Positions 1 to 16,759 of a stretch of 44,364 bases of DNA are shown here, piece by piece (positions within the stretch are counted from its first letter, which is position 1; each line of letters begins with the position of its first letter). The DNA is taken from positions 1-44,364 of IMG/VR virus record IMGVR_UViG_3300044984_000279; one strand, written 5' to 3'. The stretch comes from a virus. The notes below the pieces were generated by a model. The model made no database searches and was not told where the DNA came from. It saw only the letters and a list, made by a program, of their open reading frames with translations. Both the position numbers and the translations under genes were made by a program.

Positions 1-668
1 CCCACTGCTTTATTGACTCCAACAAATACACCCCCAAGTGATCGATTAATTGTGTCAATGCCGAACAATTCATAATCACTTTCTTCTAATACAAATCGCG
101 GAGCATTTAGCCAGCACATTAGTTGACTGGGCCGCATCCATTCAGGTGCGTGTAGTTCTTTTCGATAACTCAGTGCCCAGGATTCAAATTCATGACATAA
201 TAGATTAAGTTGTCGAATGTGCCAACGGGTAGTGGGGTCTGCAGCAGTGTAATAAGGACTCATCTGACCAGATACTCCTTGTAAATCTTCAAAGTATCTA
301 TGTAAGTGATTTAACTTATCGTGAACAATATTACGTACTGCTGGTTCGTCACCAATTGGATCATCAGTCAAACAATTATCCATTGAAAAATAATCATCAA
401 TTTGATAACCAAGGTTAGCTTGATTAATTGCAGCAATACTATGATTAACTTGATTTAAAATATACCAACCGTTACGAGGACTATTAGCAAACCCAAAGAA
501 ACAATAGTTCTTTTCTAAATGATAATTGTGCTGTATCAGATGATTTAGCGCATCAAGCCATTTACGGCTTAGGCTATTGTCAAATACATCAACATATACA
601 GTTAAATGACTGTCGTTGCCCTGTAAAACAATTTCAATAGTGTCAATTAATTGATTGGTACCATTCAT
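1..668 (-). CDS. Conserved-looking protein of unknown function, C-terminus cut by window edge
   Basis: An uninterrupted minus-strand frame runs from ATG at 668 to the window edge (222 complete codons), so the stop lies outside the window. The protein begins MNGTNQLIDTIEIVLQG and is soluble-looking, rich in Trp, Tyr, His and Asn. No signal peptide, membrane segment or catalytic motif that I recognise is present. Visible landmarks are FFGFANSPRNGW (about residues 57-68), LHRYFEDLQG (122-131) and WMRPSQLMCWLNAPRF (177-192). It overlaps the end of the upstream radical SAM gene by 26 bases, so it is probably translationally coupled and part of the same cassette. The first in-frame ATG was chosen; the only other nearby ATG (664) reaches a stop after five codons. 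Its function is unknown to me, although the long open frame with protein-like composition makes it a real gene. Confidence 0.8.
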   Translation of the reverse strand, partial: MNGTNQLIDTIEIVLQGNDSHLTVYVDVFDNSLSRKWLDALNHLIQHNYHLEKNYCFFGFANSPRNGWYILNQVNHSIAAINQANLGYQIDDYFSMDNCLTDDPIGDEPAVRNIVHDKLNHLHRYFEDLQGVSGQMSPYYTAADPTTRWHIRQLNLLCHEFESWALSYRKELHAPEWMRPSQLMCWLNAPRFVLEESDYELFGIDTINRSLGGVFVGVNKAV

Positions 669-1938
669 AAACATCAGGTCTCATTGATAATATGTCGGCC
701 ATGGTATATTCATCGCCACGGATATCTTCTAATTGTAACACACGTTGCTTGCCTTTGTCAAGTGCTAATTTCCAAGTGTCTGGGTATTGCTCTTGGAATG
801 TAGGTCTAGTTTTGAGCTGTATTAATATGTCCCTAAGTGAGTTATGAAGGGGACTACCCAAAATTTCGTCTATCCATGGATGTAATATATCCTTAGGTAG
901 GGCCAATGGCGACATAATAATATCAGGACTAAAACTAAAGACTACTTTGGCAAGAACATCTACATCCAATTCTTCAGCAAGGCGGCTAATGTTGGCGACT
1001 TCGAACATTCCGGGCAATGTGAGAGTGAAGTCAATGCGCATTTGGCGTCGGTGACTTGCGATTCTAACTCCTTGACGGAAGTTTGTAAGCCATGAATTAT
1101 AGTCAAGTCCTGTTCTAATATACTCACCAATTGGTCCTGTTCCGTCGAGACTGGCACAGATTTGCCAATCACGTAGCCCAGATAGAATGTCCCTATAGAG
1201 ATTGACGCCGCGATAGTCGACACGGCTAAGATTTGTATTGTACCTTGCGTAAACACGTTTACCATCTCCTAGTTCAACAATGCGCTTCATATAGCGCCAA
1301 TGTTGTTCGTACATTAGTGGCTCCCCGCCTACCCAATATACTTCTTCTACTTGATGACTTTCTACAGCACTCGCAAACTCTTGTTCTATTTGACTGTCTT
1401 GAAAAGCAGTAATCTGTTCTTTGATTTCGGGCTTCATCCAATTGTTCTTTGGATTCGACCAATTGATCATATTATGAGTGCGCTGTTCTGTTTCCCAGGC
1501 GCTGGATAACATATCTCCACACATACGACATTTGAAATTACATAGGTTACTAAAGCGATAATCCCAACTAACAGGACGAAGTGTAGTAGTTCCGTCTGGT
1601 TGGGTATTCTCTACTATACTATCATACTTATGAGCAAACATTTGATCAAAATAACTACGGTAAACGCTTGTGTTTAATAATTTGTCATTACATACTTCAC
1701 ACTCAGGTAAGGTCTCGCCGGCCATCATACGGCGGCGAACACTTTTCATGTGTTCGCTGTTCCAATGCTGTTCAAGTGTGATAGGAATATACCGACCAGT
1801 GCCGGCACTGGTGTCAATGTACTGTTCAAAGTTCTGTGCAGGCTCGCGACTAGCACAACACAATCTGCGTTCAGTCTGAGGACTTAGGTATGTGTGTACC
1901 CACGGTGCTAGACACAAAGTCTGTGGTTTAGGTTGCAT
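643..1938 (-). CDS. Radical SAM protein with N-terminal twitch-like cysteine region (rSAM A)
   Basis: Radical SAM enzymes bind a [4Fe-4S] cluster through CxxxCxxC and cleave S-adenosylmethionine to a 5'-deoxyadenosyl radical. Here the motif is CNFKCRMC (Cys133, 137, 140), followed by a GGEP motif near residue 203 and SLDGTG then YIRTG further on. The first 85 residues carry Cys9 (CLAPW), Cys27-Cys28 and Cys80/Cys83 (CEVC). This resembles a twitch domain that would hold one auxiliary cluster, but placed before the catalytic domain. I prefer the ATG at 1938 (431 residues) over 1983. It has GGAG seven bases upstream, cuts the overlap with the preceding gene to 11 bases, and puts CLAPW at the same depth as in its paralogues. 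It is the last of five related genes in this cassette. The substrate is unknown; SPASM/twitch enzymes often act on peptides. Confidence 0.88.
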   Translation of the reverse strand: MQPKPQTLCLAPWVHTYLSPQTERRLCCASREPAQNFEQYIDTSAGTGRYIPITLEQHWNSEHMKSVRRRMMAGETLPECEVCNDKLLNTSVYRSYFDQMFAHKYDSIVENTQPDGTTTLRPVSWDYRFSNLCNFKCRMCGDMLSSAWETEQRTHNMINWSNPKNNWMKPEIKEQITAFQDSQIEQEFASAVESHQVEEVYWVGGEPLMYEQHWRYMKRIVELGDGKRVYARYNTNLSRVDYRGVNLYRDILSGLRDWQICASLDGTGPIGEYIRTGLDYNSWLTNFRQGVRIASHRRQMRIDFTLTLPGMFEVANISRLAEELDVDVLAKVVFSFSPDIIMSPLALPKDILHPWIDEILGSPLHNSLRDILIQLKTRPTFQEQYPDTWKLALDKGKQRVLQLEDIRGDEYTMADILSMRPDVYEWYQSIN

Positions 1939-2983
1939 GTATCCACTCCAATGTTGGAGTAATAAATTCAACGTTAACTCCATTTAATACCTGAGCTCTA
2001 TCATAAAACTTATTGTAATTATGTTTAATTTTTTGTTCTGTTAGTGGATCTAAATATCCGTTACAATCGAAATTTATAATATTATTGTAGACAATTTCTA
2101 ATCTATCTTCAAAAAACTCTTCAACGTCGTAACTTTCATCAAACAAATGCCCGTAGGTTTCAAATCCCAATGAGCGTAGATGTGCTAGTGTTCCCTTCAT
2201 CCCCAACGACATAAATGGATGTTGGTGTGCTATAGGTTTATATGTCTTTTCTGTAATAAACAAGTCAGCAGGACAATGTTCGTCCGATTTAAGCCCTTGT
2301 TGCTCTTTTATCAAATCTGCACAGTCAAAATAAGTTTCAACAGCCACAGTAAAATATGTGTCATCATACCATTCAGATTCGAATTGTCTATCCCAGCCAA
2401 TACGTGCTACTGGATTATCCTCTTTAGTAACTAAAGGTTTTCCATTGCACCAGCGTTCAACATAACTCCAAGTGGCGCGATCTAATACAGGTTCAAATCG
2501 TTCAACGATTGCTGTTCTAAATGGCTTGCTACGTTTAATTGGCATGAAAAACAAATTATTGTTTGTACGATTTGGTACATAGTTTTGATATTGAAAATTC
2601 TTATCGCAGGTATACCAAAGACTTTCATTATACCAAAACCAATTTGGTACATTGATAATGTTCTTCCATCCATAAGCATGCGAATTCTTGCAACCCAATA
2701 CTACTAAAATATTATCTAAATACGGCTGAAAATCACGTGCTAGTAAGAATGGGCGAGCTTCCCATAAGTTTGCTAAAATTACTCTGAATCCGTCAGACAA
2801 GAATTTAATTAGAATATCGTTATTAAAAAATTCCGGGCGTGACACTACTAAGATATCTGTATCTTTATTATATGTTTTAGTATTATTATAGACACTTAGA
2901 TCAAACTCTGTTTGCAGTATCCATTCTAGGTAACTACTGTTCAGATCTGTCCAACCAACCCTGACTAAATTTATTTTACTCAT
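1928..2983 (-). CDS. Putative glycosyltransferase, GT10-like C-terminal motif
   Basis: A 351-residue soluble protein. Its best clue is a C-terminal block at about residues 240-290 with ITEKTYKPIAHQHPFM, then GFETYGHLFDESYD. This resembles the nucleotide-sugar-binding C-terminal part of GT-B enzymes of the fucosyltransferase (GT10) type, where a conserved E-K-x(n)-P block occurs. The N-terminal half is divergent and I see no diagnostic motif there. It overlaps rSAM B by 8 bases upstream and rSAM A by 11 bases downstream, so it sits between two radical SAM genes in the same operon. If the assignment is right, it transfers a sugar in the cytoplasm to a phage product or a glycan intermediate. It could instead be a non-catalytic relative; the family call is tentative, but the gene itself is certain. 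Confidence 0.6.
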   Translation of the reverse strand: MSKINLVRVGWTDLNSSYLEWILQTEFDLSVYNNTKTYNKDTDILVVSRPEFFNNDILIKFLSDGFRVILANLWEARPFLLARDFQPYLDNILVVLGCKNSHAYGWKNIINVPNWFWYNESLWYTCDKNFQYQNYVPNRTNNNLFFMPIKRSKPFRTAIVERFEPVLDRATWSYVERWCNGKPLVTKEDNPVARIGWDRQFESEWYDDTYFTVAVETYFDCADLIKEQQGLKSDEHCPADLFITEKTYKPIAHQHPFMSLGMKGTLAHLRSLGFETYGHLFDESYDVEEFFEDRLEIVYNNIINFDCNGYLDPLTEQKIKHNYNKFYDRAQVLNGVNVEFITPTLEWIHAT

Positions 2984-4169
2984 AGCCCATAGCCTTGGCC
3001 ATCTCAGGGTGTGTGGTTAAAAAACTTTGATCGCGGTATTCATCTGCCAGTTTCATATTGCGTAGGAATTCTTGGCCGTCACTGCTTTGACCGTTTCGAA
3101 TAAACTTAATAATACGTAGAATTTCTGCACGATATTTAGGATGAACTTGTATATTAGTTAATTTATCAATGACTAATTCTTGTGCATCTGCAGTCATACG
3201 ACTAATACACATGTGCCATGGATCGTGTAACATATTAAAGTAGATATGATCAAAAGTCTGTTTTTCAATCCATGCACATATCTCTGGAAGATAGTAAACA
3301 TTTTGTACATTAACTGTCAGACACAGTTGTGTAGAAAATTTATTGCTACGCATACTGGTAAATCTACTTAGATTTTCTTGTACTTCAGACCACAACGCAC
3401 CATATCGTTCATATTCAAATCGCTCTTCTGTGTTGTCAATTGAGAGTGCTACCTCTACCTGTTTAAAGTGACTCCACAGGTGATGTTGTTCAGGGAATAC
3501 AGTGCCGTTAGTATTATAATGAATTTCAATGTTTTTAGCGTAACCATGAGACACAGCATACTCTAATAGATCAAAGTGTTGTTGAATAAGAAAAGGTTCA
3601 CCACCAGTGAACTCGAGATACTTAATGTTTGGTAAAAGTTGCTTTAGATTGTCCCAAAATATTTCGCTTTCTCTAGGCCAAGCTCCCTGTTTCATCCATA
3701 TGTTTGCAATATGATCTTTTCTGTGTTCTTTAGGAACATAGTCTAATTCTTCTCTAGCCCACTTACTACTTGACCAGCTACCGCAGATACGACATTTAAG
3801 GTTACAGATATTACCCAGCTTAAGATCAATAAACCACAGTTGATTAGGGTTAGTATTTGTCCAATCTACACTGTCATAGTACTCCTTTAGTCTTATACGA
3901 CTGTTCATACGTTTACTAGTACGGCCTGCGGCTTCTTCATCCCAACAACGCTGACAGGTTTCTGGCTTATTGCCTGCAAGGAACTCTGAACGTAATGCCT
4001 GCATGTATTCGCTATGATATATTTCTTCTAAGGTATTTTCGCGTAGACTATATTTGGTACCGTCGGGCTTTGTAATCTCATCTACAGCAAGACAGCAAGG
4101 GCGAGCGGTGCCTATAGGACTAGTTTCAATACTAATCCACGGTAGCATACATATTTTCTCAGGCAACAT
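2976..4169 (-). CDS. Radical SAM protein with N-terminal twitch-like cysteine region (rSAM B)
   Basis: A 397-residue protein. The cluster-binding motif is CNLKCRIC (Cys122, 126, 129), followed by FTGGEPFL and then SIDNTEERFEYERYG, the counterpart of the SLDG..YIR block in its paralogues. The N-terminal region has CMLPW (Cys7), PCC (Cys25-26) and CQRC (Cys72, 75), the four-position cysteine pattern expected of an auxiliary iron-sulfur cluster. It is the shortest of the five and the most divergent in the YIR block (YERYG), suggesting a different substrate. Its start overlaps rSAM C by 11 bases and its end overlaps the glycosyltransferase-like gene by 8 bases. It groups with A and C, not with D and E. 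Radical SAM membership is secure; the reaction is unknown. Confidence 0.9.
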   Translation of the reverse strand: MLPEKICMLPWISIETSPIGTARPCCLAVDEITKPDGTKYSLRENTLEEIYHSEYMQALRSEFLAGNKPETCQRCWDEEAAGRTSKRMNSRIRLKEYYDSVDWTNTNPNQLWFIDLKLGNICNLKCRICGSWSSSKWAREELDYVPKEHRKDHIANIWMKQGAWPRESEIFWDNLKQLLPNIKYLEFTGGEPFLIQQHFDLLEYAVSHGYAKNIEIHYNTNGTVFPEQHHLWSHFKQVEVALSIDNTEERFEYERYGALWSEVQENLSRFTSMRSNKFSTQLCLTVNVQNVYYLPEICAWIEKQTFDHIYFNMLHDPWHMCISRMTADAQELVIDKLTNIQVHPKYRAEILRIIKFIRNGQSSDGQEFLRNMKLADEYRDQSFLTTHPEMAKAMGYE

Positions 4170-5475
4170 ACTGTCTTAGATCCTTATACTCTGTAAACAC
4201 ATCTTCAAATCTTTCTTTTCTATACTGATCATGTATATCGTTTACACGAAAAAACTCTCGAAGCAAATGGCTATTATCGTTAGCATTCATAAAGTGTAGC
4301 ATACCCTCATAACCACTAGTGGCACGTTGTAGGTGATCTTGTGGGCGTAGCCAATCAATATGTTCTTGCACTTTAGCTGTTACTTGTTCTTTATACCGGT
4401 GTGGCAGAATATCAATACGATCGCGGTCAGGACCTTGCAAGATATTAACATTCCAATCCTGTGCTCGTAAATAGCCTCGATCAACCCAATTACGATGAAA
4501 ATCTGTTACATGATTAGCATTATAAAGACTTACCGTTGAGCTAACATAAAAGTCAGTGTTGGGGCAACGTTTCATCATTTCTTCACGATTACGCTCAATT
4601 TGATCCCACTTAGTACCTTTACGTATATATTCGCCGTGCGCAAACATACCGTCTAGGCTAGCACCAACACTGACATTCTTAAATAATCTCCAGTAATCTA
4701 GTACATTGTCATCTTTAAGATGTAGACGACTGAAGTTTGTGTTATAAATCAATTTAACATCAAACATCTCACGAGCTGCTAGTTCTTTAAGAATCCAGAA
4801 ATGTTCCTCCATCATCAGAGGTTCACCACCGGCAAAATAAACTTGTTCTAAGTATGGTATGTGTTCCTGTAGTTGATTCCACATGTCGTGCTCATCGCGA
4901 CCAGCAAACATGATCTTAGGATAACTACGTTTACCATATAGTTGTTCTTCTTCTGCGTACCAACTTGAACTAAACCAGCCGCCACAGGTACGGCAGGTAA
5001 AGTTACATAGGTTACTGAAACGTATGTCATAGTAACGTAATTTAAAATCATCGAACTGTCCATCGGGTAGTGTTTGATCTACTATCTCAATGTGCTGTCC
5101 AAAGTTTTTATTTGTGCTGTTACGCATGCTTACAAATCCACTAGCTTCCTGCTCGTAGCATTTACTACATTCTTTGCAGGGCTTTTCTTCCAGCATGTTT
5201 TTACGCATGGTCTTATATGCGTCTTGATTCCAAACAGTAGCCATGCTATCTTGTTTGAAGTTACCGATAGGATGACGATCATCACCTAGACAGCAAGGAT
5301 AAGCACGACCATCAGGAAAGCCATGCATGTGTATCCAAGGTATCATACAGAATACATCACTCTTGGTCAGGCGATCTAACTGATCAGGACGTAGATCATC
5401 TTCACTGATATACACTGGTTTACGTGTATGATAGTGATGATTTTTATAGTAGTCGTTTTGTTGCTGATCGCTCAT
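4159..5475 (-). CDS. Radical SAM protein with N-terminal twitch-like cysteine region (rSAM C)
   Basis: A 438-residue protein with a roughly 40-residue polar N-terminal extension absent from A and B. The first conserved cysteines follow: CMIPWIHMHG (Cys43), YPCC (Cys61-62) and C-KECSKC (Cys100, 103, 106). The catalytic cluster motif is CNFTCRTC (Cys157, 161, 164), then FAGGEPLM and SLDGMFAHGEYIRKG. The segment around Cys43-Cys106 (PW..., DGRAYPCC, GN..., W...R..ML) reads like a SPASM/twitch region moved to the N-terminus. Start and upstream stop overlap by four bases (ATGA) with the SGNH-like gene, a classic translational-coupling arrangement. Of the five it has the most complete match to the A/B/C subgroup. 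Radical SAM chemistry is secure by family; substrate unknown. Confidence 0.92.
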   Translation of the reverse strand: MSDQQQNDYYKNHHYHTRKPVYISEDDLRPDQLDRLTKSDVFCMIPWIHMHGFPDGRAYPCCLGDDRHPIGNFKQDSMATVWNQDAYKTMRKNMLEEKPCKECSKCYEQEASGFVSMRNSTNKNFGQHIEIVDQTLPDGQFDDFKLRYYDIRFSNLCNFTCRTCGGWFSSSWYAEEEQLYGKRSYPKIMFAGRDEHDMWNQLQEHIPYLEQVYFAGGEPLMMEEHFWILKELAAREMFDVKLIYNTNFSRLHLKDDNVLDYWRLFKNVSVGASLDGMFAHGEYIRKGTKWDQIERNREEMMKRCPNTDFYVSSTVSLYNANHVTDFHRNWVDRGYLRAQDWNVNILQGPDRDRIDILPHRYKEQVTAKVQEHIDWLRPQDHLQRATSGYEGMLHFMNANDNSHLLREFFRVNDIHDQYRKERFEDVFTEYKDLRQYVA

Positions 5476-6134
5476 AATGTTAGTAGTATCTGTTGTGCTA
5501 TTTGTTCGTGGTCTGTTTTAGTAGGATGCCCTAACCCTTGCCGCCAAGTACCAAAATTGTCCATATTAATGTTTATGCTACCCACTGATCCCATACAACA
5601 AGTTTCAATTAATCGCACTCCTTGATGTTCACATAATACTCGTATCATGTCAACATAATTACTTTTTTTACTTTCATATTCTTCACCGTCGAATTTATAT
5701 CTAATAACGGTATCGTAGATTGTGGATAACGGATCTAAATATTCTGCACGATCACTGCATATTCTAGGGTGCAGATTAATATTACTATCTGTATAATCTT
5801 TAAAATGTGTAAATGATTGTCCCTGTTTAGCAGTGGCGCACCAACTTGGTATAATAAACCATTCTCTATCTTCAGCACGCCAATACTCACGCATAGTGCT
5901 AGTCCAGCCTACAATAACAAGAGTAATTTCTTGACTTTTATATCTGGCTAATGTATTTACTACATTGTGAAATATACCTTCATTACTAATACCACATACA
6001 GAATAATTTTTACATTCTACTCCTAGGGTATTTGCTACTAAATTAGGGTAACTGTATTTGACGTTGTCTTCGTGTTGATTTGCATGCACTAATTCTGCGC
6101 CGTGTGTAACCGAACAACCAAAGGCCAATATCAT
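5472..6134 (-). CDS. SGNH/GDSL-hydrolase-like protein
   Basis: A 220-residue protein opening with FGCSVTHG, which matches block I of the SGNH (GDSL) hydrolase fold with Ser8 as the candidate nucleophile. Near the C-terminus GHPTKTDHEQIA places His203 where the catalytic His of block V is expected, followed by a helix. The usual Asp three residues before that His is not seen (Gly200), so the triad may be incomplete or use another acid. SGNH proteins in glycan loci are often O-acetylesterases or acyl-transfer enzymes. It lies between two radical SAM genes and overlaps each by four bases, so it is expected to act in the same pathway. No signal peptide is visible, so it is probably cytoplasmic. 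The fold call is fairly good; the substrate is unknown. Confidence 0.7.
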   Translation of the reverse strand: MILAFGCSVTHGAELVHANQHEDNVKYSYPNLVANTLGVECKNYSVCGISNEGIFHNVVNTLARYKSQEITLVIVGWTSTMREYWRAEDREWFIIPSWCATAKQGQSFTHFKDYTDSNINLHPRICSDRAEYLDPLSTIYDTVIRYKFDGEEYESKKSNYVDMIRVLCEHQGVRLIETCCMGSVGSININMDNFGTWRQGLGHPTKTDHEQIAQQILLTL

Positions 6135-7507
6135 AGAGTATCGTACCAGTCTGCTATTTGTGGAAAAGTATATTTAAAGTCTAGACCACGTCGCCGGTCG
6201 TATTGCTGATAAAAGTTTTTAAAGTCACGTTGTAGAATCTCACGCGATAGTGCTCCGCTGTGTGGACTATCTACTGTCTGCAGATATTCAATTAATCTTT
6301 GTAATTGATTAAATTCAAACTCATGCATATCCGTCCACGCCGCCTTGCCAAATTGTTGTAGTTCTTCTGCGTATTGTTCACGCACCTCTAGCGGTAAAAT
6401 TAACGGACTTTGGAAACTTGGAAAGCGTAAAATGTTTAGACTAAAGTTAATACTATCCTTGCCATACTTTTGTTTAAGTTTGACTATCATCCATAGTAGA
6501 TCTGTTAAACTTAATAAGCATAGGGCATTGATTGTACACATAACGTGGAGCCCACGCAACTTACCGCTATCCAATAAGAACATAACATTATTAACCCACT
6601 GATCCCAATCCAAGCCATCGCGTATATACATTGCGTGACGACCCCAACTTTCATTGCTTGTGTATAAATCCAGTTCAATACCATCTGTAGCATCCAATAA
6701 GTGTTCTAATTTATCTTGTTCGTAGGCCAGGTTACTATTGATTGCTAGGCGTGTAGTACTTTGTCCTTTGTTCTTTTGGAACCAATCAATCAGACGCCAT
6801 GTATATCCGCTCATTAAAGGCTCGCCACCTGTGATGCGTAGTTCTTTTAATGTTCGGTGTAGGTCTGACTCCCACCAAGCAAAGAACGCTTCAACGTAAG
6901 GATTAACTTGATCAATAGTAAAAAGTTGACTACTATCGTGAGTGTGAGTAAAGTGATTGCGTCCGTCAGATACAAGATGTTCATAGGCTCCATTGCGTTT
7001 AATATCTCTAACCCAGGAGGTACTGAAAGCAGGGTTACAATAACTACAAGCAAGCTGACAAGTTCTGTCGAATGCAATTTCCAAAGTTTGTAAGTTGACA
7101 TCTTGATACCACCCAAGTTTATACGCATCATCTAAATCCTTATCATCATATATTACTGTTTTGTACACACGATCACTAATTGGCTCAGGAACATCCTGGC
7201 CTGCATACTTGGGATCTTTATACATGTCTTCAATCTTCCAGCAGTACTCGCAGCCACTAGGACGTTCTCCGGCATGCATCTGTCTGCGCTGTTCTTTCTT
7301 TTGGGGTGTGTTATGCAAGGCACTAGGATTGCTTAGTATTGCTTCTTTATCAATAGCATGTGGTAAAGGGTGGTGACAACTAGTAGTTTGTCCACTGCCT
7401 AACCATATAGTAGCGTTGTACCACTTGGCCGCACAGAAGCTTTCGCTCTTAATGTCAATCACTCTACGCTTGTATTGTAGATCTGTTTCGTTAGCTATTT
7501 TCGGCAT
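6131..7507 (-). CDS. Radical SAM protein with N-terminal twitch-like region (rSAM D)
   Basis: A 458-residue protein with CQLACSYC (Cys150, 154, 157), then ITGGEPLM and YIRDGLDWDQW. The N-terminal cysteines are Cys25 (CAAKW), Cys44 and Cys86/Cys89 (CEYCW). Where paralogues A-C have a Cys-Cys pair, this protein has Cys44-His45-His46. It is the closest relative of rSAM E immediately upstream. They share NPSALHNT/HPSALHNT, KKEQR, the G-E-x-P-x(2)-C-x-Y-C-W-x-I-E-D segment, SYCxPxFSTxW, NPYVEAF and a C-terminal YDxRRG. The pair looks like a tandem duplication that has since diverged. It overlaps rSAM E by 17 bases and the SGNH-like gene by 4 bases. An AGGAG lies ten bases before the chosen ATG. 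Reaction unknown. Confidence 0.92.
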   Translation of the reverse strand: MPKIANETDLQYKRRVIDIKSESFCAAKWYNATIWLGSGQTTSCHHPLPHAIDKEAILSNPSALHNTPQKKEQRRQMHAGERPSGCEYCWKIEDMYKDPKYAGQDVPEPISDRVYKTVIYDDKDLDDAYKLGWYQDVNLQTLEIAFDRTCQLACSYCNPAFSTSWVRDIKRNGAYEHLVSDGRNHFTHTHDSSQLFTIDQVNPYVEAFFAWWESDLHRTLKELRITGGEPLMSGYTWRLIDWFQKNKGQSTTRLAINSNLAYEQDKLEHLLDATDGIELDLYTSNESWGRHAMYIRDGLDWDQWVNNVMFLLDSGKLRGLHVMCTINALCLLSLTDLLWMIVKLKQKYGKDSINFSLNILRFPSFQSPLILPLEVREQYAEELQQFGKAAWTDMHEFEFNQLQRLIEYLQTVDSPHSGALSREILQRDFKNFYQQYDRRRGLDFKYTFPQIADWYDTL

Positions 7508-8900
7508 GCCATTTGCACTCCTGCCAAAACTCTTTCATCTGTGGAAATATATCTGTAAAGTATCCTATATCCGTTTCGTATGCTCCTCTACGTTTGTCAT
7601 ATTCATTAAAGAATCGATAGAAGTCCGCACGTTGTTCGTTGATATACTTTTCTGTAAGCTTCTTGCCATTCTTCATCCAAGCAAGGTCACGTTCCATACG
7701 TTGTATTTCGTAGTCTTTGAATCCATCAAATCTATTTTCACCTTCTTTAATCTGATATTGTTTCATCCACTTGATCACATCTTCTAAGATGCCTGTATAA
7801 GCTGGCGGAAGTATTTGTAGGCTTTGCCACTGTGGCGTTCTCAACACAGGAGTATCAAACCAAACACGTTGATAGGTTGTGCTGTGTAGTTTGCGCAATA
7901 CTAAAATGTGTTCTAATAGTCTTTGTAGACCTAAGATACTAAGGTTATTCATTGTGATGATAAACGTTAAGCTATTACGTCCAGGAATCTCAGTTAAAAA
8001 ACGATTAGTATAATCATTAACTCTATTAGAATTCAAACCACGACGAATATATTCAGCATGTTCAGGTATACCTGTATCTAAACTTACATACTGCATAAAG
8101 TGTTCAATCTTTGTACCAGTACACAAGTCTTTTACTTTGTCTAGATACTTTTCAAACAAACCAGGTTCAACACTGAAGTTACTAGTAACATCTACGTGTA
8201 AATCACTCTTAGGACTTGCTAAGATATAATCAAACACACGATGCGTATTCTTATCCATTAGCGGCTCACCACCAGTCATTCTAAAGTGTTTTAAGCTACC
8301 GTATAGTTCTGGCCACCATTTCCAGAACGCTTCTACGTAAGGATTATGATCTTTAACAGGAATAGGTTGTCTACGACCTTTAAAATGACTAGGGTCGTTG
8401 TGTGGTTTTGCTGTGGGATATGCTCCCCAGCGATCAATATCTTTCTGCCACTCTGTACTAAACTGTGGACTGCAATAACTGCATGCTAGGTTACAACCGT
8501 GACTAAAGTTTACCTCAACATAACTCGGAGTAACATCGGCATCCCACGGTAGGGCTTTAATAGTATCATAGTGTTCGGAGGCCCACGGCTCGCCACTGCG
8601 ATAGTGACGATCACTTAAGTGACCAGTATCTTCTATATGCCAACAGTAATTACACTCTTTAGGTTTTTCACCTTCGAGCATTTTCTTACGTTGTTCTTTT
8701 TTATGCTGTGTGTTGTGTAGGGCACTAGGATGAAACTCAACTACCTGTGCATCAATTTCGTGCAATGGTGGATGGTAACAGCTATTGTTAAGCCCAGTAG
8801 GCAAATGTAGGCTTACTTGTTGCCATTTAGCCAAACATAAACTAGGACCTAATTTGTCCTTCATTTCTTCTGCAGCCGACATGAATACTGATTTACTCAC
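7491..8900 (-). CDS. Radical SAM protein with N-terminal twitch-like region (rSAM E), GTG start
   Basis: A 469-residue protein with CNLACSYC (Cys136, 140, 143), MTGGEPLM and SLDTGIPEHAEYIRRG. N-terminal cysteines are Cys22 (CLAKW), Cys41 (SCYHP) and Cys83/Cys86 (CNYCW). As in rSAM D, the second residue of the usual Cys-Cys pair is lost and a His follows. The start codon is GTG at 8900, with AAGGA ten bases upstream. The next in-frame start is ATG at 8882, without a comparable ribosome-binding site. GTG overlaps the end of the preceding glycosyltransferase gene by 8 bases. It is the first radical SAM gene of the cassette and a tandem paralogue of D. Radical SAM membership is secure; its partner or substrate is unknown. 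Because D and E differ mainly outside the cluster motifs, they may act on related but distinct substrates. Confidence 0.92.
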   Translation of the reverse strand: MSKSVFMSAAEEMKDKLGPSLCLAKWQQVSLHLPTGLNNSCYHPPLHEIDAQVVEFHPSALHNTQHKKEQRKKMLEGEKPKECNYCWHIEDTGHLSDRHYRSGEPWASEHYDTIKALPWDADVTPSYVEVNFSHGCNLACSYCSPQFSTEWQKDIDRWGAYPTAKPHNDPSHFKGRRQPIPVKDHNPYVEAFWKWWPELYGSLKHFRMTGGEPLMDKNTHRVFDYILASPKSDLHVDVTSNFSVEPGLFEKYLDKVKDLCTGTKIEHFMQYVSLDTGIPEHAEYIRRGLNSNRVNDYTNRFLTEIPGRNSLTFIITMNNLSILGLQRLLEHILVLRKLHSTTYQRVWFDTPVLRTPQWQSLQILPPAYTGILEDVIKWMKQYQIKEGENRFDGFKDYEIQRMERDLAWMKNGKKLTEKYINEQRADFYRFFNEYDKRRGAYETDIGYFTDIFPQMKEFWQECKWHAENS

Positions 8901-9792
8901 GGTTCATTATTCCTTTGTTTACAAAATTACTCTTGTAATGATGTTTAAAAAATTTACTTTCTGCTGGATCCATATCTATAATAGGTAATCCCAATCGTGT
9001 ACGAAGTATCTGACCTAACCGTTGGCAATGTTCTACTGGTTCATTGATACTTTCGTATTCCTTCCATAATGCCCCGAGCGCATCAAAGTCTTGTACCTTA
9101 CGATAATCCCAATCTTCTAACATTGTTAAATACGTACCTTGACGTGATCCAACTATAGCCCAAAAACCATTCTCTACGTCTGCGCCTACGGTTTGCCAAA
9201 TACATAAGTTATCATAGTTACGACTATGTACACGCTGTTCGAAGTCTTCTAATGAAGGCTTTGTTCCACGATCTAAACACATCTTAACACCCTCACGGAA
9301 GCCCGCTCGCCATGCTTGGAAAGGTGTTTGGTTTGGATAGGTTGTTGAATAGCAGTCACTCATAGCCCAATAGTTAGGATAGAAACAAAACTCTACATCA
9401 TTTTCGGCTGAGCCGTCTGATGCTTCATGCGTTTTCATCTGATTGACGAAATCCTTTGTCCAACAAGATAAGCCACCGTTGCCGTATTGTAGGCCATTAA
9501 TGTAATTACGAGCACGCCAACGGAAAACGCAATCTCTATTAGTTTCATCGAGTTTAAGTTGAAGGTTAAAGAACTCGGGGTTAGGGAGGTTGTCACCGTC
9601 AATGAGGATAAACCGATCAGTGCCACTGGCACTAGCGGCCGCCTTGTGAGCCGCGTCACTGCCCTTGACTCCATCAACTCTAGTAGCCCAAGGAACCATG
9701 TTTTGTATCTTAATCCAATTTTGCTCTTTGTTAGGTTCGTCGTAGGTTAGGTAAACTACGTCTAAGTCTGCTATATCAACTATTTGGCTCAT
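8893..9792 (-). CDS. Putative GT-A-fold glycosyltransferase
   Basis: A 299-residue protein. VVYLTYDEPN near the N-terminus and FILIDGDN (Asp65-Gly-Asp67) fit the nucleotide-sugar-binding strand and metal-binding DxD motif of GT-A glycosyltransferases. The intervening VDGVKGSDAAHKAAA resembles the region that precedes the DxD strand in these enzymes. The later part is rich in Trp, Tyr and Phe and gives no further diagnostic motif. It overlaps the small upstream gene by 17 bases and rSAM E by 8 bases. This places it at the junction between the glycosyltransferase half and the radical SAM half of the cassette. It should transfer a sugar from a nucleotide donor in the cytoplasm; donor and acceptor are not predictable. 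It could also be a nucleotidyltransferase-like relative, but DGDN favours a transferase. Confidence 0.72.
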   Translation of the reverse strand: MSQIVDIADLDVVYLTYDEPNKEQNWIKIQNMVPWATRVDGVKGSDAAHKAAASASGTDRFILIDGDNLPNPEFFNLQLKLDETNRDCVFRWRARNYINGLQYGNGGLSCWTKDFVNQMKTHEASDGSAENDVEFCFYPNYWAMSDCYSTTYPNQTPFQAWRAGFREGVKMCLDRGTKPSLEDFEQRVHSRNYDNLCIWQTVGADVENGFWAIVGSRQGTYLTMLEDWDYRKVQDFDALGALWKEYESINEPVEHCQRLGQILRTRLGLPIIDMDPAESKFFKHHYKSNFVNKGIMNRE

Positions 9793-10138
9793 AATATTCT
9801 ACACTATCATAGGTTTCATCTAGCTCTAAGATTAGGCCAGCATGATGTTTTACAGTTTTAAATCCTTGATTACTACGCTTTAATTGTACACTCACTCCGG
9901 GGTTCATGTCAATCTTTATTAACCGTTTTTTCACAATATCTACATGATATTGAGTATAGTTGTTATATGTTTCTCGATCAACTACGATATATTGTTCACT
10001 TTCTGGATGTTTCTGCATACTACACATATGAATAGCACCAGTTTCGTCATAGTGTAAGCGATATTCTATAGGTTCCGGTACAATAGCCATGGCGGCCATA
10101 GCAGAGTTAAACTCATCTAACCATTCTTGCGAATTCAT
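9776..10138 (-). CDS. Small protein of unknown function in the modification cassette
   Basis: A 120-residue acidic protein. I place the start at ATG 10138 because AAGGAG ends seven bases upstream of it. The earlier in-frame ATG (10144) would leave only one base of spacing. Visible segments are EYRLHYDETGAIHMCSMQ, a YIVVDRETYNNY block and a basic VKKRLIKIDMNPG stretch, followed by an acidic C-terminus. The alternating pattern suggests a small beta-rich fold; no membrane segment, signal peptide or catalytic motif is evident. It overlaps its upstream neighbour by 26 bases and the downstream glycosyltransferase by 17 bases. Being embedded between two transferase genes, it may be an accessory subunit or a substrate-binding protein. 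I do not recognise the family. Confidence 0.8.
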   Translation of the reverse strand: MNSQEWLDEFNSAMAAMAIVPEPIEYRLHYDETGAIHMCSMQKHPESEQYIVVDRETYNNYTQYHVDIVKKRLIKIDMNPGVSVQLKRSNQGFKTVKHHAGLILELDETYDSVEYYEPNS

Positions 10139-10982
10139 CTGCATACTCCTTGATTAGTTCGTCTGTAACCCATGCTTTATCTTGATAGTGCAAGGGATGG
10201 TATTGATTAATGTTATTAATTCTAACCATTGGCACAGGTGTCTCATACACTACTAAATTGTGCCACGGTGTTGCTGTACTAAACTTATTAATTTTTGGCT
10301 TCATATGTGTAAAGTTAATAAAATCTACACCAGGTATAGTACAGACTTCTTCTCCCACAATCTTAGCGGCCAATGCATATACTACATCAGTAGTTGGCTG
10401 TTCGTCATAACACTTAATTAAGGTATCTTTAACCGTAGTCCAGTTTTGAAATATCTGTCGAGCATACCAAAAGAACTCTGCGGCTTCTTGGCTATAACGG
10501 AAATACATAATGCCATTATAAACATCAGGTAGTTGGTTGTCATCAAACACTTGTCTATATGTTCTGTCATCACTGAGTTTGCCTAGATAATCTCTACATC
10601 CTTGGCCAAGTACAATGTTTTTAAGTCTAAACGTAGTCCACCAATGCGCTATGCTACGAGTGAATACAATGTCGCTTTCTAATTTGATTGTTTCTTTAAA
10701 CGGCGTTAGATAAAACGCCTGCCATTCATTAGACAATTTCCATTCAACGTTAGCTGCTTCGTCGTTCTCAATGGTAGTAACATAGTCGAATACCTTGCGA
10801 TGCTCATCTGTCACTAGCTCTAAGGTAGCTTGATCAACTGCTACTGCATACAAACTACCTGGCATAGTTATCTTAATGCTCAGAGCTTGCAAGTATGCTA
10901 GGCGCAGATAATCCACATCTAAGGTATTCTGTGCAATAGTAAAAAATCCTTGCTGTGCTTGATATTGATCTACTTTGCGCAT
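10113..10982 (-). CDS. Glycosyltransferase-like (GT-A fold) protein with ESD in place of DxD
   Basis: A 289-residue protein that looks paralogous to its upstream neighbour. GFFTIAQN, then LRLAYLQALSIK, then FYLTPFKETIKLESDIVF correspond to the strand-helix-strand of a GT-A nucleotide-sugar domain. The neighbour has YELSPYDETILIDSDYLM at the same place. The metal-binding DxD triplet of the neighbour (DSD) is here Glu102-Ser-Asp104, a conservative change that may alter metal or donor use, or may reduce activity. Later, VYNGIMYFRYSQEA is typical of the acceptor-side strand in family-8-like enzymes. It overlaps the preceding gene by 13 bases. No signal peptide is visible, so cytoplasmic action is expected. 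Activity is uncertain; the fold call is moderate. Confidence 0.68.
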   Translation of the reverse strand: MRKVDQYQAQQGFFTIAQNTLDVDYLRLAYLQALSIKITMPGSLYAVAVDQATLELVTDEHRKVFDYVTTIENDEAANVEWKLSNEWQAFYLTPFKETIKLESDIVFTRSIAHWWTTFRLKNIVLGQGCRDYLGKLSDDRTYRQVFDDNQLPDVYNGIMYFRYSQEAAEFFWYARQIFQNWTTVKDTLIKCYDEQPTTDVVYALAAKIVGEEVCTIPGVDFINFTHMKPKINKFSTATPWHNLVVYETPVPMVRINNINQYHPLHYQDKAWVTDELIKEYADEFARMVR

Positions 10983-11779
10983 ATCGTATCTACAAAGTCT
11001 TTAAAGTTATCTGATAGCAAATAGCCTTTATCCATAACGTGTATGTTCTGACGAGGGATTACGTATCCCCTTTCTCGTTCTTTAACTACTAGCATAGAAT
11101 TCTTCACAGTGATACTAGTTGTAACATCAGCAAAGGTCAGCATTGGTGTAACTATACCTTGGTCAAAATTTGGATCATAGCCGTTTAGAATATTGTTAGC
11201 AATAGTAAAAGCATAGTCGTTACGAAAGTTTCCCTCACGCATATGATATAGTTTCATGTAGTAGGTATAGTTGCGTTGTATACGGCCCACCAGGTCAAAC
11301 AACATTTTTGTTTTAGCTGTTTTGCGGAATAGAATGACTGTAGCCCAAAGATAATCAAGACCAAACATGCCCATCTTTAACTTCCACGCCGTAGCAGGTT
11401 TATTATTCCAACTCATTATCCGATAATCAAAGTCTTGCTCAAATAATTTAATTAAATTAGTATCAAGCATTAGATAATCGCTGTCTATTAGAATAGTTTC
11501 ATCGTAAGGACTTAGTTCATATGCTCTAAAACGATCGCCATTGCGCCAGCTGCCTTCTACATCTATTTTGCGATTTTTAAGTTCGTTACTGACATAGACT
11601 ATGTTGTCAAAGCCCTGTGCTGTAGTTCCGTGCTCTGTAACTAAGGTAACAGGTAATCCTGTAGTATGTTTAACTAGTCGTGCGCAATGTTCAGCTATAG
11701 TAACGTAGCTGGTCTTTTCTGTGTCAAAAGCAAAAAGCAGTACTCCTCTAGACTTTGCGGGCACGTTTGATTTCGTCAT
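10970..11779 (-). CDS. Putative GT-A-fold glycosyltransferase (GT8-like)
   Basis: A 269-residue protein. VLLFAFDTEKTSYVTIAEHC begins the Rossmann-like donor domain. GLPVTLVTEHG is a second strand, and YELSPYDETILIDSDYLM supplies an intact DxD (Asp99-Ser-Asp101). This order matches family-8-like glycosyltransferases, where 'SP(Y/F)xxT(I/L)xxDxD' is the hallmark. The next gene encodes a diverged paralogue with ESD, so the pair may form a heterodimer or act in succession. It overlaps the 104-residue gene upstream by 32 bases and the paralogue downstream by 13 bases. It probably transfers a sugar to a phage-encoded acceptor in the cytoplasm. The acceptor could be the fibre proteins encoded just upstream, but this is inference. 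Confidence 0.75.
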   Translation of the reverse strand: MTKSNVPAKSRGVLLFAFDTEKTSYVTIAEHCARLVKHTTGLPVTLVTEHGTTAQGFDNIVYVSNELKNRKIDVEGSWRNGDRFRAYELSPYDETILIDSDYLMLDTNLIKLFEQDFDYRIMSWNNKPATAWKLKMGMFGLDYLWATVILFRKTAKTKMLFDLVGRIQRNYTYYMKLYHMREGNFRNDYAFTIANNILNGYDPNFDQGIVTPMLTFADVTTSITVKNSMLVVKERERGYVIPRQNIHVMDKGYLLSDNFKDFVDTICAK

Positions 11780-12062
11780 GTTGGATATGCCAGGTGTTCA
11801 TTACCATTTGATAATGTTGTCGACACAATGTCAGAAGCTCGAGCCTACTAACTAGTATTGGATTTTGATAGGTATCTTCTAGATATAACTCATCAGAGTC
11901 CCAGGCATTAAGGAACGCTATTAGCTCTGGGGTAACTTTAAACAGGCCGCTATTGTGTGTTACCTGTAGATCTGTTTGAATTTTTTCTCGTAAGATACGT
12001 TTGTTGACTTGATAGTCAGTGGCTAAACGTATTTCTTGGGTAAGGTTGTCTAAGTCGCTCAT
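11748..12062 (-). CDS. Small helical protein of unknown function, first gene of the cassette
   Basis: A 104-residue, charged, mostly helical-looking protein. It starts MSDLDNLTQEIRLATDY and includes the segments VTPELIAFLNAWDSDELYLE and YQNPILVSRLELL, ending in a basic tail (IKRARKV). No transmembrane segment or enzyme motif is seen. It is the first gene after the terminator at 12096-12117 and sits behind a possible promoter. No convincing Shine-Dalgarno sequence precedes its ATG, so it may be read from a very short leader. Its reading frame runs 32 bases into the glycosyltransferase gene. Its position between fibre genes and modification enzymes would suit a fibre chaperone, an adaptor for the enzymes or a substrate, none of which is shown by sequence. 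Confidence 0.8.
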   Translation of the reverse strand: MSDLDNLTQEIRLATDYQVNKRILREKIQTDLQVTHNSGLFKVTPELIAFLNAWDSDELYLEDTYQNPILVSRLELLTLCRQHYQMVMNTWHIQHDEIKRARKV

Positions 12063-12076
12063 ACTAGTAATTATCT

Positions 12077-12105
12077 AGTATAGCAACCCAGTGAGAAAAA
12101 AGCAA
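12077..12105 (-). promoter_or_regulatory. Possible sigma-70-like promoter for the modification cassette
   Basis: Reading the minus strand, TTGCTT (12105-12100) is separated by 17 bases from TATACT (12082-12077). The -10 box is good and the -35 box matches three of six consensus positions. Transcription would start about eight bases before the ATG at 12062, giving an almost leaderless message. The -35 box overlaps the T run of the terminator. The late-type (A/G)ATAAATA motif found in the structural region is absent here. The call is tentative. Confidence 0.35.
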
Positions 12106-12117
12106 CCGAAAAGGTTG
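12096..12117 (-). terminator. Rho-independent terminator after the fibre genes
   Basis: On the minus strand, directly after the stop codon of the 306-residue fibre gene, CAACC and GGTTG form a five-pair stem around a TTTTC loop. One C and a run of six T follow. Stem strength is modest, but its position immediately after a stop codon, before a new block of genes with a different function, supports it. It would separate late structural transcripts from the cassette, though some read-through is likely. Confidence 0.65.
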
Positions 12118-12118
12118 A

Positions 12119-13039
12119 TTAAACTGCTGCAATAGTTGGATTGCCCCAGCTAGCTGATAGATAGGTTGTTGCTGGTGGAGTGTATGTACCGTTATAGGCC
12201 ATGGTCACGTTTACAGCGTCGTTTAACCCTACGTAGGTTGTAGGGATATTCCACCCAATTGTAACGGTAATTTGTAGACCGTTATCACCATTACCGCCAA
12301 CGTTGGTGGTGCTTGTTTTTACGTTAAAGTTTGTATAATCACTGTTATATTCGTAACGATAATTACTTGAATAGACCTGACTTGCGAGTTGATTTGTTGT
12401 AGTTAATCCCCAATAACCAATACTATTTGTAGTACGGGTTGCGCCGTTAGTTCCTGTGTATGATGATGCGCTGTTAGTCATCACACCACCTTTAAGATTA
12501 GTGCCCAAGTTTGTCACTAAGTCGGCACTACGTAATGTACCATTATTGTTCGTAACACCTGTAATATTCCAACCAATACGTCCACCACAGTTAAAGAAAT
12601 AACGTGCAGCATTGCCACTTGCCCAGGTGAACGTCATGGCTTTTGTACCTGAGAATGCCCCAGTACCGCCAGTAATATTGTAACCGGTCAAGGTAGTTGT
12701 TGCTAGTGTGCCCGTGGCTGCAGCAGTTAGTCGACTACTGTAAGAAGTATTAACCGCAGTTTGCAGAGTAGCTAGATAGGTAATAGTTGTACCTGCTGTT
12801 GGCGCACTAATACCAGACCCTGCACCACTTTGGTGTAGCCTAGCATTGTTTAATGTATTAACTAAACTTGCCCATTGCGTGGCTGTCACCGTTCCGCTGG
12901 CACTAACAGCACTAACAGCAGTTTGGCCGTACCCAGCACTACCAGAGCCCACGTTCCAAACTGTGTTAAGTTGGTTTGACCCATTGATAAGATTATTATA
13001 ATCTGTAGCTTGGATTAATCCACCTGATGCGTATGTCAT
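12119..13039 (-). CDS. Tail fibre / adhesin-like structural protein
   Basis: A 306-residue protein rich in Gly, Thr, Asn, Ser and Ala with almost no Lys, typical of trimeric phage fibre or receptor-binding proteins. The N-terminus (GGLIQATDYNNLIN) has the 'I.A.DYN.L' form common at the start of fibre and baseplate-attached proteins. A similar TATQWASLVNTLN follows at about residue 52. The remainder is strand-rich with Tyr and Trp at intervals. It is last in the fibre block, eleven bases after the 615-residue fibre gene, and is followed by a terminator. AAGG lies upstream of the ATG. It is likely a virion surface protein; whether it is a receptor-binding tip or a decoration cannot be told. Confidence 0.65.
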   Translation of the reverse strand: MTYASGGLIQATDYNNLINGSNQLNTVWNVGSGSAGYGQTAVSAVSASGTVTATQWASLVNTLNNARLHQSGAGSGISAPTAGTTITYLATLQTAVNTSYSSRLTAAATGTLATTTLTGYNITGGTGAFSGTKAMTFTWASGNAARYFFNCGGRIGWNITGVTNNNGTLRSADLVTNLGTNLKGGVMTNSASSYTGTNGATRTTNSIGYWGLTTTNQLASQVYSSNYRYEYNSDYTNFNVKTSTTNVGGNGDNGLQITVTIGWNIPTTYVGLNDAVNVTMAYNGTYTPPATTYLSASWGNPTIAAV

Positions 13040-13050
13040 TTTTCTTTACC

Positions 13051-14898
13051 TTAACTGTTTAATTTAACTATAGCTTCAACGGTGCCTTCAGTCACTGTTG
13101 TTTTGTCTTCTAATGCGCGGCCAATTACATTGAACGCTGTCATTTCACTTCTGTCTGCAGCACGAGCTAGGCCGTTACCTGCACTTACTAAACGATCACC
13201 TTTCTTAACAGCACCAATTACACGAACTGGTACACGACCGTTAACTGCTACTGGTGGATGGGTAGCATTGGTACCTGCGCCGCCGTTTAGCAAGAAACCT
13301 GCAGCTGTACTTATAACACCAAATACTGCTTCTGACAATTCTTGTACTGCGGCTGTAATTTCTTTTAAGCCACCTAGTTCAACTACAGTACCCGGTACCA
13401 TAGGAACGTCTGCTTCAAAGCGTTCTGCCAAGTCAGCATAATTGGCCTGTACTGATAAGAAATTACCTGTTACACCGTAGATAAAGTTCCAGCGCGAAGC
13501 TGATGTACCTAAACTCGATGCTGCATTAGCTGATGGTACAGCATACGCAGTAGTAACAGTTAAGTTACCGTTTACTACTGTCGCGCCAGTGATTGTAGTA
13601 GCACCGTTAACTGTTAATGAACTTAATGTGCCTCCGGTGGCTAAAATATTACCTGCGGCATTAATAAATCCGCTAGATATTGTTAGTGTACCAACTTGTG
13701 TAGTTGCGCCGTTAACTCTTAATGAATTAAATAAACCACCCTGTGCTAATACGTTGCCAGATGTATTAAGTTGTGAGAACACCGTACCCGTACCTGATGT
13801 TAAACTTAGAACATCAATGTTAACACCATAAATTGTATTGTATCTATTTGTAGCATTACCCAAATATGCCACATTGTTTGATGTTGGAATAATGTTACCA
13901 CTGTGGTTTGTTATACCATTAACTGTTAGTGCATTATGTACAGCACCAGTTGATAAAACATTGCCCGATAGATTTAAGGACGTACCAGTAGTTGCACCAG
14001 CTACTGTTAGTGCATTAGCCACTGTGATTGTATTGGTACTTGCGGCAATAGTTAGTGCTGTGGTAGTAACGCCGCTTCTGTTTATATCTACACGAATATT
14101 TCTGTTTGATGTTGTTTCTGCAACAACCGCTGTACCGGAACTAGTATCAAATGTCAAGTCACCCCCAACAGTTAATCCGCCAGCTGCGCCAAATGCATAG
14201 TTGGTTGTTTGGCTAATATCGCTACGTAAGAATTGGCTAGCTGAGAAGCCGCCTAAAGTACTTGCGCCAGTTGTAGCACCTGTAAACTGTGCTCCAGCAA
14301 TAGTAGTTTGACTAACTAAATTTAAACCTGGGATAATTGTACTAAAGCCAGGAATTGCTGTTTGTGGTGTAAATGTTGCGTCTTTGCTTAGAATAGCAAC
14401 AATAGTATTTGATACATAAAATTTAGTTACATTGTGCGAAACTGCACCTGTGTCCAGAATACTTTCTGTTACCGGACCCGATGTACCTGATGTGCTAGTG
14501 TATGTAGGACCAATAGTAATCCAGGCACTACCGCTCCATACTTTCAATTGTGCATTAGTAGTGTCCCACCAAATATCGCCTGTTACTGAAATACCTGCGC
14601 TAGGCGAAGTTGCTTGTGTAATCGCACTTGAAATAGGTTTCCAAAGATTGTTTGCAGCATTGTAGACTTTTAAGATGTCGTTTACGTTATCATACCAAAG
14701 TTGACCTGTTAATGGTGCTGTTGGTGCTGTGCTATTACTAAAGTTTTCTAGTAATTGAACGTAGTTTTCATTTAAGAAAATACCATAACCAGCATAGTTT
14801 TTACCAATGAGCGTAAGACTAGTAGCAGTAGTATTAACTGTACCATCTGCGACTGTAGCTATCGATATCCCAGCTGTTGTAGTGACTGTATATGTCAT
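13051..14898 (-). CDS. Tail fibre protein with shared N-terminal module and self-cleavage-type C-terminal domain
   Basis: A 615-residue fibre. The first about 235 residues match the two neighbouring fibres: DGT..T....LTL.G.NYAGYG, LLENFS, TGQLWYD, GDIWWDTT and FTPQTAI. The central part (about 320-480) has Thr/Asn/Gly-rich repeats around 'SLxVNGATT', alternating with 'PS.N....LG....R.N.IYG' units. Residues about 485-615 begin YADLAERFEADV and contain PGTVVELGG, GVISTAAG and GRVPVRVIG. This C-terminal domain occurs in many phage fibres and neck appendages and is related to intramolecular chaperone/auto-cleaving (Peptidase G2-like) domains. A late-promoter-like motif lies 26 bases upstream. It is probably the main host-range fibre of the set, as the only one with this C-terminal domain. 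Confidence 0.82.
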   Translation of the reverse strand: MTYTVTTTAGISIATVADGTVNTTATSLTLIGKNYAGYGIFLNENYVQLLENFSNSTAPTAPLTGQLWYDNVNDILKVYNAANNLWKPISSAITQATSPSAGISVTGDIWWDTTNAQLKVWSGSAWITIGPTYTSTSGTSGPVTESILDTGAVSHNVTKFYVSNTIVAILSKDATFTPQTAIPGFSTIIPGLNLVSQTTIAGAQFTGATTGASTLGGFSASQFLRSDISQTTNYAFGAAGGLTVGGDLTFDTSSGTAVVAETTSNRNIRVDINRSGVTTTALTIAASTNTITVANALTVAGATTGTSLNLSGNVLSTGAVHNALTVNGITNHSGNIIPTSNNVAYLGNATNRYNTIYGVNIDVLSLTSGTGTVFSQLNTSGNVLAQGGLFNSLRVNGATTQVGTLTISSGFINAAGNILATGGTLSSLTVNGATTITGATVVNGNLTVTTAYAVPSANAASSLGTSASRWNFIYGVTGNFLSVQANYADLAERFEADVPMVPGTVVELGGLKEITAAVQELSEAVFGVISTAAGFLLNGGAGTNATHPPVAVNGRVPVRVIGAVKKGDRLVSAGNGLARAADRSEMTAFNVIGRALEDKTTVTEGTVEAIVKLNS

Positions 14899-14923
14899 AA
14901 TTCTAACCTATTTAATATTATAT

Positions 14924-14931: not shown

Positions 14932-14936
14932 TTAGT

Positions 14937-15464: not shown

Positions 15465-15467
15465 TTG

Positions 15468-16745: not shown

Positions 16746-16759
16746 TCTTTTACCTTATG

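Follow-up and report, generated by a model that had tools for sequence, protein, structure and literature searches.

A conserved operon with five radical SAM genes beside a fibre gene of uncultured aquatic phages and its possible role in glycan decoration

Five radical SAM genes lying next to the fibre genes of a phage raise the question of what such a cassette does for the virus and on which molecule its products act. The cassette comes from a 44-kb viral record of IMG/VR (IMGVR_UViG_3300044984_000279); the whole stretch analysed, positions 1 to 44,364 (44,364 nucleotides), is hereafter called the window. A preliminary description, made from the sequence of the window alone, had reported twelve overlapping genes coding for five radical SAM, four glycosyltransferase-like and one SGNH-like protein among others. 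The comparison with related phages revealed an operon whose gene order is conserved and whose products are almost all predicted to be soluble; one fibre gene, FIB306, is its near-constant neighbour. We tentatively favour a cytoplasmic role in which the operon assembles an unusual glycan and modifies it further, the FIB306 fibre being the most likely carrier.

Gene calling relied on a simple longest-ORF method (ORF, open reading frame), which makes starts and overlaps approximate. Thirteen overlapping genes, and not twelve, were found at positions 3-12062, all on the minus strand: 12 are complete and one (3-674) is truncated by the window end. All of them overlap, by 4 to 32 bases as first described; a single overlap rises to 56 bases when the 643-1983 gene is given its longest possible start. 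They code for five twitch-domain radical SAM proteins, two GT8-like proteins, one further GT-A-like protein, one accessory glycosyltransferase-like protein and one SGNH-like protein, the others being of unassigned function. They are listed below with FIB306 and the intergenic gap; counts refer to the 88 contigs compared in this work, and E values to the NCBIfam twitch-domain radical SAM family NF033640.

FIB306, 12119..13039, minus strand: S/T/N/G-rich fibre-like protein, proposed acceptor.
FIB306-p104 gap, 12063..12118, minus strand: terminator and sigma70-like promoter.
p104, 11748..12062, minus strand: core small protein of unknown function, first gene of the operon (76/88 contigs).
GT269, 10970..11779, minus strand: GT8-like glycosyltransferase (80/88).
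GT289, 10113..10982, minus strand: GT8-fold glycosyltransferase (82/88).
p122, 9776..10144, minus strand: small protein of unknown function (65/88).
GT299, 8893..9792, minus strand: GT-A-like, the most conserved core protein outside the radical SAM set (82/88).
R5, 7491..8900, minus strand: twitch-domain radical SAM protein (4.8e-86).
R4, 6131..7507, minus strand: twitch-domain radical SAM protein (5.8e-85).
SGNH220, 5472..6134, minus strand: SGNH/GDSL-like accessory protein, sub-threshold in Pfam (9/88).
R3, 4159..5475, minus strand: twitch-domain radical SAM protein (2.3e-118).
R2, 2976..4169, minus strand: twitch-domain radical SAM protein (2.3e-102).
GT351, 1928..2983, minus strand: accessory glycosyltransferase-like protein, named by resemblance (25/88).
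R1, 643..1983, minus strand: twitch-domain radical SAM protein (2e-86).
p365, 3..674, minus strand: core protein without assigned function, truncated at the end of the window (76/88).

Two scans of IMG/VR, with R3 and R4 as queries, yielded loci collapsing to 88 distinct contigs. These contigs are best matches and share descent, and the selection favours the counts of R3 and R4, not those of the other genes. The order FIB306 - p104 - GT269 - GT289 - p122 - GT299 - R5 - R4 - R3 - R2 - R1 - p365 recurs among them far beyond chance, with insertions at a few sites and with f23/p115-type proteins occupying the p122 position in some contigs. Neighbouring core genes overlap, or almost do, in 97% or more of the cases, except at R5-R4 (94%) and GT299-R5 (92%), and a simple hydropathy test indicated that almost all core proteins are soluble, with hardly any predicted membrane proteins. 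The carriers are a large, uncultured family of aquatic phages: GT299 relatives were detected in at least 595 viral stretches, and a tblastn search of 50,697 phage records (E 0.01; 0.001 in a second search for FIB306) gave no isolate homologue of p104, p122, p365, GT299 or FIB306. A simple auxiliary metabolic gene set, or a block acquired horizontally from bacteria, was discarded: R3 had no relative in the one genome scan made with it, and the GT299 relatives recovered from genome bins lie mostly on phage-like contigs with fibre genes. Remote homologues also occur in actinobacterial genomes (L474, L479 and L481), with glycosyltransferase-like neighbours in L474.

The cassette is tightly linked to FIB306, which immediately precedes p104 in 70 of the 75 loci retrieved via the radical SAM genes and in 72 of the 76 retrieved via GT299. 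In the reverse direction, all 75 non-edge loci among the best 80 of more than 530 matches to FIB306 carried the cassette. The association is kept in deeply diverged marine versions: in contigs binned with bacterial genomes, in which GT299 is only 43-54% identical, and also in L057, where the ORF upstream of the cassette matches the FIB306 profile at 1.7e-19. The same L057 cassette also contains a radical SAM protein with a B12-binding domain (11118-13388). In the 50 common contigs, the divergence of FIB306 follows that of p104, GT269 and GT289 (Mantel rho 0.56-0.61), and the partial rho with p104 and GT269 given GT299 is still 0.40-0.45, whereas for FIBx, a fibre gene flanking FIB306 on the opposite side, rho is 0.10-0.24 and the partial value 0.05. 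The upstream FIBx genes are thus not co-inherited with the cassette, and the co-divergence of FIB306 is evidence for its co-inheritance or co-adaptation with the enzymes. The neighbourhood comparison that had been proposed to establish co-conservation with the fibre block is therefore positive for one fibre gene. Since fibre and enzymes could both follow the host surface, the co-divergence alone does not identify the acceptor.

The genes upstream of the cassette match tail-fibre and baseplate families and are T4-like; the marker is a gp6-type baseplate wedge protein (phrog_10646, 2e-299), about 35% identical to those of Atu_ph07, SCTP-2 and 121Q. A single ORF of 4857 amino acids (window 19262-33835, minus strand) lies between the fibre genes and the baseplate gene.

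Other fibre genes, 13051..18457, minus strand: FIBx paralogues and a 175-amino-acid protein, matching tail-fibre/virion PHROGs.

The preliminary description supposed that, by its position, the cassette would follow fibre synthesis; the signals in the FIB306-p104 gap do not support this. In the window, a terminator (CAACC-TTTTC-GGTTG followed by a T run, 12103-12117) precedes a sigma70-like promoter, TTGCTT-17-TATACT. In the gaps of 70 contigs, an intrinsic terminator was present in 63% versus 0% of shuffled sequences, and a sigma70-like promoter with at least 10 of 12 matches in 44% versus 2.6%; the neighbouring gaps lack such signals. T4-type late promoters were also looked for in the gap and discarded, TATAAAT being present in only 2 of 70. 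Owing to this terminator and promoter, the cassette is predicted to be a separate transcription unit, probably transcribed by the host polymerase.

All five radical SAM proteins score 286-396 bits against NF033640 (E about 1e-85 to 1e-118), well above the curated cut-off of 170 bits. The CxxxCxxC motif and four N-terminal auxiliary cysteines are 99-100% conserved in each subfamily (85-96 orthologues each). The motif corresponds to C136/140/143 in R5, C150/154/157 in R4, C157/161/164 in R3, C122/126/129 in R2 and C148/152/155 in R1, and the auxiliary cysteines to 22/41/83/86 in R5 and 25/44/86/89 in R4. Four of the five contain at least one further conserved cysteine: C260 and C462 in R5, C330 in R4, C283 in R2 and C276 in R1. 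Radical SAM and auxiliary-cluster cysteines are thus intact in all five proteins. R1 is the most conserved, with a median identity of 74% across 80 contigs. The five genes represent five separate orthologous positions in fixed order, without extras in 45 of the 88 contigs and with extra or missing paralogues in the others. In 16 related records, 6 to 16 NF033640 matches per record were counted. Genomes with the cassette also carry many isolated single radical SAM genes in other places; it follows that only the cassette is fibre-tied, and the idea that radical SAM genes always accompany fibres was abandoned. A second recurring radical SAM locus (RsA - rS28 - about 590 amino acids) is also found away from the fibres (G003:C1 7278-9450 (L146), L326 and L340).

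The glycosyltransferase assignments are of unequal strength. The AlphaFold2 model of GT289 (mean predicted local distance difference test 94.8) has a fold matching glycogenin, LgtC and UGGT (Foldseek versus glycogenin: E 1.3e-9, probability 1.00), and glycogenin was also recovered by sequence profile. GT269 is its paralogue (hhalign, probability 99%). Both display a DxD-type metal site, the invariant D99xD101 in GT269 and an ExD variant, the invariant E102xD104, in GT289; as neither matches PF01501 in Pfam, they are classed as GT8-like and not as GT8 members. A basic C-terminal tail is absent from these GT8-like enzymes. GT299 contains an invariant D65-G-D67 and gives a weak GT-A-like fold match; a firm fold assignment was given up, the structure model being too weak. 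GT351 had no family match in profile searches. SGNH220 stays below the Pfam cut-off, and SGNH214, encoded beyond the window, reaches DUF6071 only. Of the four glycosyltransferase-like proteins first proposed, the GT289/GT269 pair is thus confirmed, GT299 is weakly GT-A-like and GT351 is so named by resemblance only; the SGNH-like protein is present under the Pfam threshold, and a set of enzymes of glycan type is supported.

The operon continues past the window. Two contigs, L006 and L063, are 99.2-99.3% identical to the window over the shared 15.5-17.5 kb and carry on with full-length p365 (362 amino acids in L006), SGNH186, a micro-ORF, SGNH214, SGNH266, a carbamoyltransferase and another radical SAM protein. 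The twelve genes taken as a unit are consequently a window artefact: SGNH220 and GT351 are accessory, and the continuation adds SGNH, carbamoyltransferase and micro-ORF genes. The carbamoyltransferase is of NodU type, PF02543 and PF16861 being both present in the L018 copy and the L006 copy belonging to the same family, which all 11 long records contain. In related contigs, further genes code for an APS-kinase-like protein and for a sulfotransferase-like one with weak support, as well as for amidinotransferase-, 2-oxoglutarate oxygenase- and epimerase-like proteins which were judged by eye, without Pfam support.

Micro-ORF, L006:16416-16517 and L341-L460: about 33-40 amino acids, ending KRDPFIYK, usually overlapping the carbamoyltransferase gene or just upstream of it.

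This micro-ORF (about 33 amino acids, ending ...YRKKLKELRKRDPFIYK) was detected in 66 of 69 eligible cassette contigs, and one copy is present in a 354-kb relative. Its variation falls mostly at third codon positions, and conserved Leu and Arg sites make use of all six codons, which shows that the peptide is under selection. A scan for KRDPFIYK gave at least 120 viral loci, in which the last eight residues are invariant owing to the selection by pattern. Among the matches listed, 96 have a carbamoyltransferase downstream, within 150 bp in 68, at a median distance of -4, that is, usually overlapping or just downstream. In many of these loci the flank retrieved lacks a radical SAM gene; as the micro-ORF follows the carbamoyltransferase into phages with no cassette in that flank, it does not belong exclusively with the five radical SAM genes. 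No significant PHROGs match was obtained for it, and KRDPFIYK was not found near the transferase in five isolate phages, nor in phage C48C1; the single-cell virus AG-345-D19 carries a related DPYIYE peptide. An amphipathic membrane helix was considered and rejected, the hydrophobic moment being no higher than in shuffled sequences.

How could these proteins work together? No PF02397, no PF01943 and no above-cutoff PF00953 (initiating transferase and flippase families) were found in the 11 long records, and a nucleotide-sugar pyrophosphorylase occurs in only one of them. On its own, the phage is therefore probably unable to produce a surface polysaccharide; it would either use host nucleoside diphosphate (NDP) sugars with a cytoplasmic acceptor or act on a host lipid-linked glycan. 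With the cytoplasmic acceptor, GT269 and GT289, and perhaps GT299, would transfer sugars from host NDP-sugar pools to Ser, Thr, Asn or Tyr residues of FIB306. R5 to R1 could then remodel the sugar by dehydrogenation, epimerisation or deoxygenation, as family knowledge suggests, the extra conserved cysteine of four of them being compatible with a hydrogen-atom donor. On the same grounds, the SGNH proteins may acylate or deacylate the sugar, and the glycan may be capped by the NodU-type carbamoyltransferase together with the small ...KRDPFIYK peptide as its partner. Early-type transcription would make the enzymes ready ahead of fibre production, and the phage would benefit from a masked or altered receptor-binding fibre. 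The complete version of this scheme, a dedicated early-expressed system placing a radical-SAM-remodelled, carbamoylated glycan on one fibre protein, with the hitherto unannotated ~33-amino-acid peptide as the obligate partner of the carbamoyltransferase, is rather unlikely to hold in all its parts.

In favour of FIB306 as the acceptor count its near-constant place beside p104, its co-divergence with p104, GT269 and GT289 but not with FIBx, the scarcity of predicted membrane proteins, the missing initiating transferase (above cut-off) and flippase matches in the 11 long records, the GT8 fold, the carbamoyltransferase shared by all these records, and an operon of Vibrio phage K566, described below, in which an S/T/G-rich protein accompanies GT8 and radical SAM genes. 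Several observations weigh against it. Its position and composition suggest a virion protein, and it has no PHROG or Pfam match that would prove it. Its co-divergence with the cassette is also expected if fibre and enzymes both track the host surface. The terminator and the sigma70-like promoter split it from the cassette, and expression of the early type would fit a host target as well. Peptides, too, are substrates of twitch-type radical SAM enzymes. Finally, in the isolated Vibrio phage K566, a comparable block adjoins a lipid A acylase gene (PagP) and is about 25 kb from the annotated tail fibres.

The nearest competitor, somewhat less probable in our opinion, is that the cassette alters a host envelope glycan (lipopolysaccharide/O-chain or capsule) early in infection, blocking superinfection or aiding release; its place in the host-recognition region would then result from the co-adaptation of fibre and receptor modification. 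The promoter ahead of the cassette and the PagP neighbour are in agreement with it, as is the island of K566 and K567 (VPK566_0302-0314), described as replacing an anti-defence island (PMC12028318). Pelagimyophage host-recognition cassettes of glycosyltransferases and radical SAM proteins have been interpreted in this way (PMC7029224), and SGNH, carbamoyl- and sulfo-type decorations are, from general family knowledge, typical of surface polysaccharides. On the other side stand the lack of flippase matches and of initiating transferase matches above cut-off in the 11 long records, the scarcity of predicted membrane proteins and the GT8-like enzymes devoid of a basic C-terminal tail. As for gtr-type O-antigen conversion, the flippase and initiating families were not found in the 11 long records; the gtr families themselves were not searched. 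An envelope target alone also leaves unexplained why one specific fibre gene is the constant neighbour when adjacent fibre genes are exchanged. The FIB306 acceptor is retained as the preferred, still tentative, reading.

It is improbable that a peptide or protein is itself the substrate of the radical SAM enzymes, either FIB306 or the ~33-amino-acid ...KRDPFIYK peptide in the manner of a ribosomally synthesised and post-translationally modified peptide, with sugars and carbamoyl added afterwards. NF033640 is part of the SPASM/twitch group, the weak NCBIfam similarities of the five proteins include peptide maturases, and a hyperconserved micro-ORF does lie inside the operon. This micro-ORF is nevertheless tied to the carbamoyltransferase, also in phages whose retrieved flanks have no radical SAM cassette, contains no cysteine and does not look like a leader and core. 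A diffusible small molecule or a nucleotide-sugar-derived cofactor, unconnected to virion or envelope, seems less probable again: the actinobacterial GT299 homologues with their glycosyltransferase-like neighbours, and the contigs adding amidinotransferase-like and B12-type radical SAM genes, would suit it, but the tight FIB306 linkage and the near absence of the pyrophosphorylase do not. Hypermodification of phage DNA, as in the glucosylated cytosine of T4, is very improbable and was rejected: glycosyltransferases of T4-like phages often act on DNA, but the core set is devoid of nucleotide-modifying genes, and gene position and FIB306 linkage are dissimilar.

No role has been assigned to the radical SAM genes that are repeatedly met in aquatic T4-like phages, and a conserved, fibre-tied module offers a definite target open to experiment. 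With the fibre as acceptor, radical chemistry would operate on a virion glycan, with relevance to receptor choice and evasion; if it is the host envelope, the cassette would represent a new route of host-surface remodelling. The micro-ORF partner of phage carbamoyltransferases matters in both cases.

Comparison with known systems places the cassette as follows. The isolated Vibrio phages K566 and K567 encode four NF033640-like proteins and two GT8 proteins passing the Pfam cut-off; in K566 (L143:17454-21441) an overlapping operon is headed by an S/T/G-rich protein of 225 amino acids, followed by a protein of 359 amino acids, a GT8 protein and a radical SAM protein. The proteins of this island are about 20-27% identical to those of the cassette, with no match to p104, GT299 or FIB306. 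The island speaks for radical SAM plus GT8 being a unit that recurs, whichever the target. Mycobacteriophages glycosylate virion proteins, the targets being capsid and tail tube (Freeman et al. 2023, cited in PMC12619734); a radical SAM or carbamoyl step is not described in the parts of PMC12619734 consulted. With the NodU/TobZ-type carbamoyltransferases of cyanophages, the enzyme encoded next to the cassette has in common the two Pfam domains of the type; the micro-ORF partner was not found beside the five isolate-phage copies checked. NF033640, above whose cut-off all five proteins score, is a family name without a known reaction, to which five fixed orthologous positions are now added. The preliminary description knew of no characterised phage pathway of such make-up; this has to be qualified, as cassettes of radical SAM and glycosyltransferase genes in T4-like phages had already been noted (PMC7029224, PMC5332604). 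In the open literature searched, no description was found of a fixed core of five radical SAM genes, of its bond with a single fibre gene, of the promoter and terminator proper to it, or of the micro-ORF. An environmental T4-like genome holding 12 radical SAM genes, interpreted as Fe-S metabolism (PMC5332604), shares the accumulation of such genes in one phage, and the sections consulted describe no operon or fibre link. Also among the closest known systems is the host-recognition cluster of pelagimyophages, which holds glycosyltransferases and radical SAM cassettes (PMC7029224): both are T4-like, lie in the tail-fibre region and combine GT8-type transferases with radical SAM genes, but the pelagimyophage cluster is described as hypervariable with no fixed gene set, whereas the cassette described here has an ordered core, five distinct radical SAM positions and one fibre gene.

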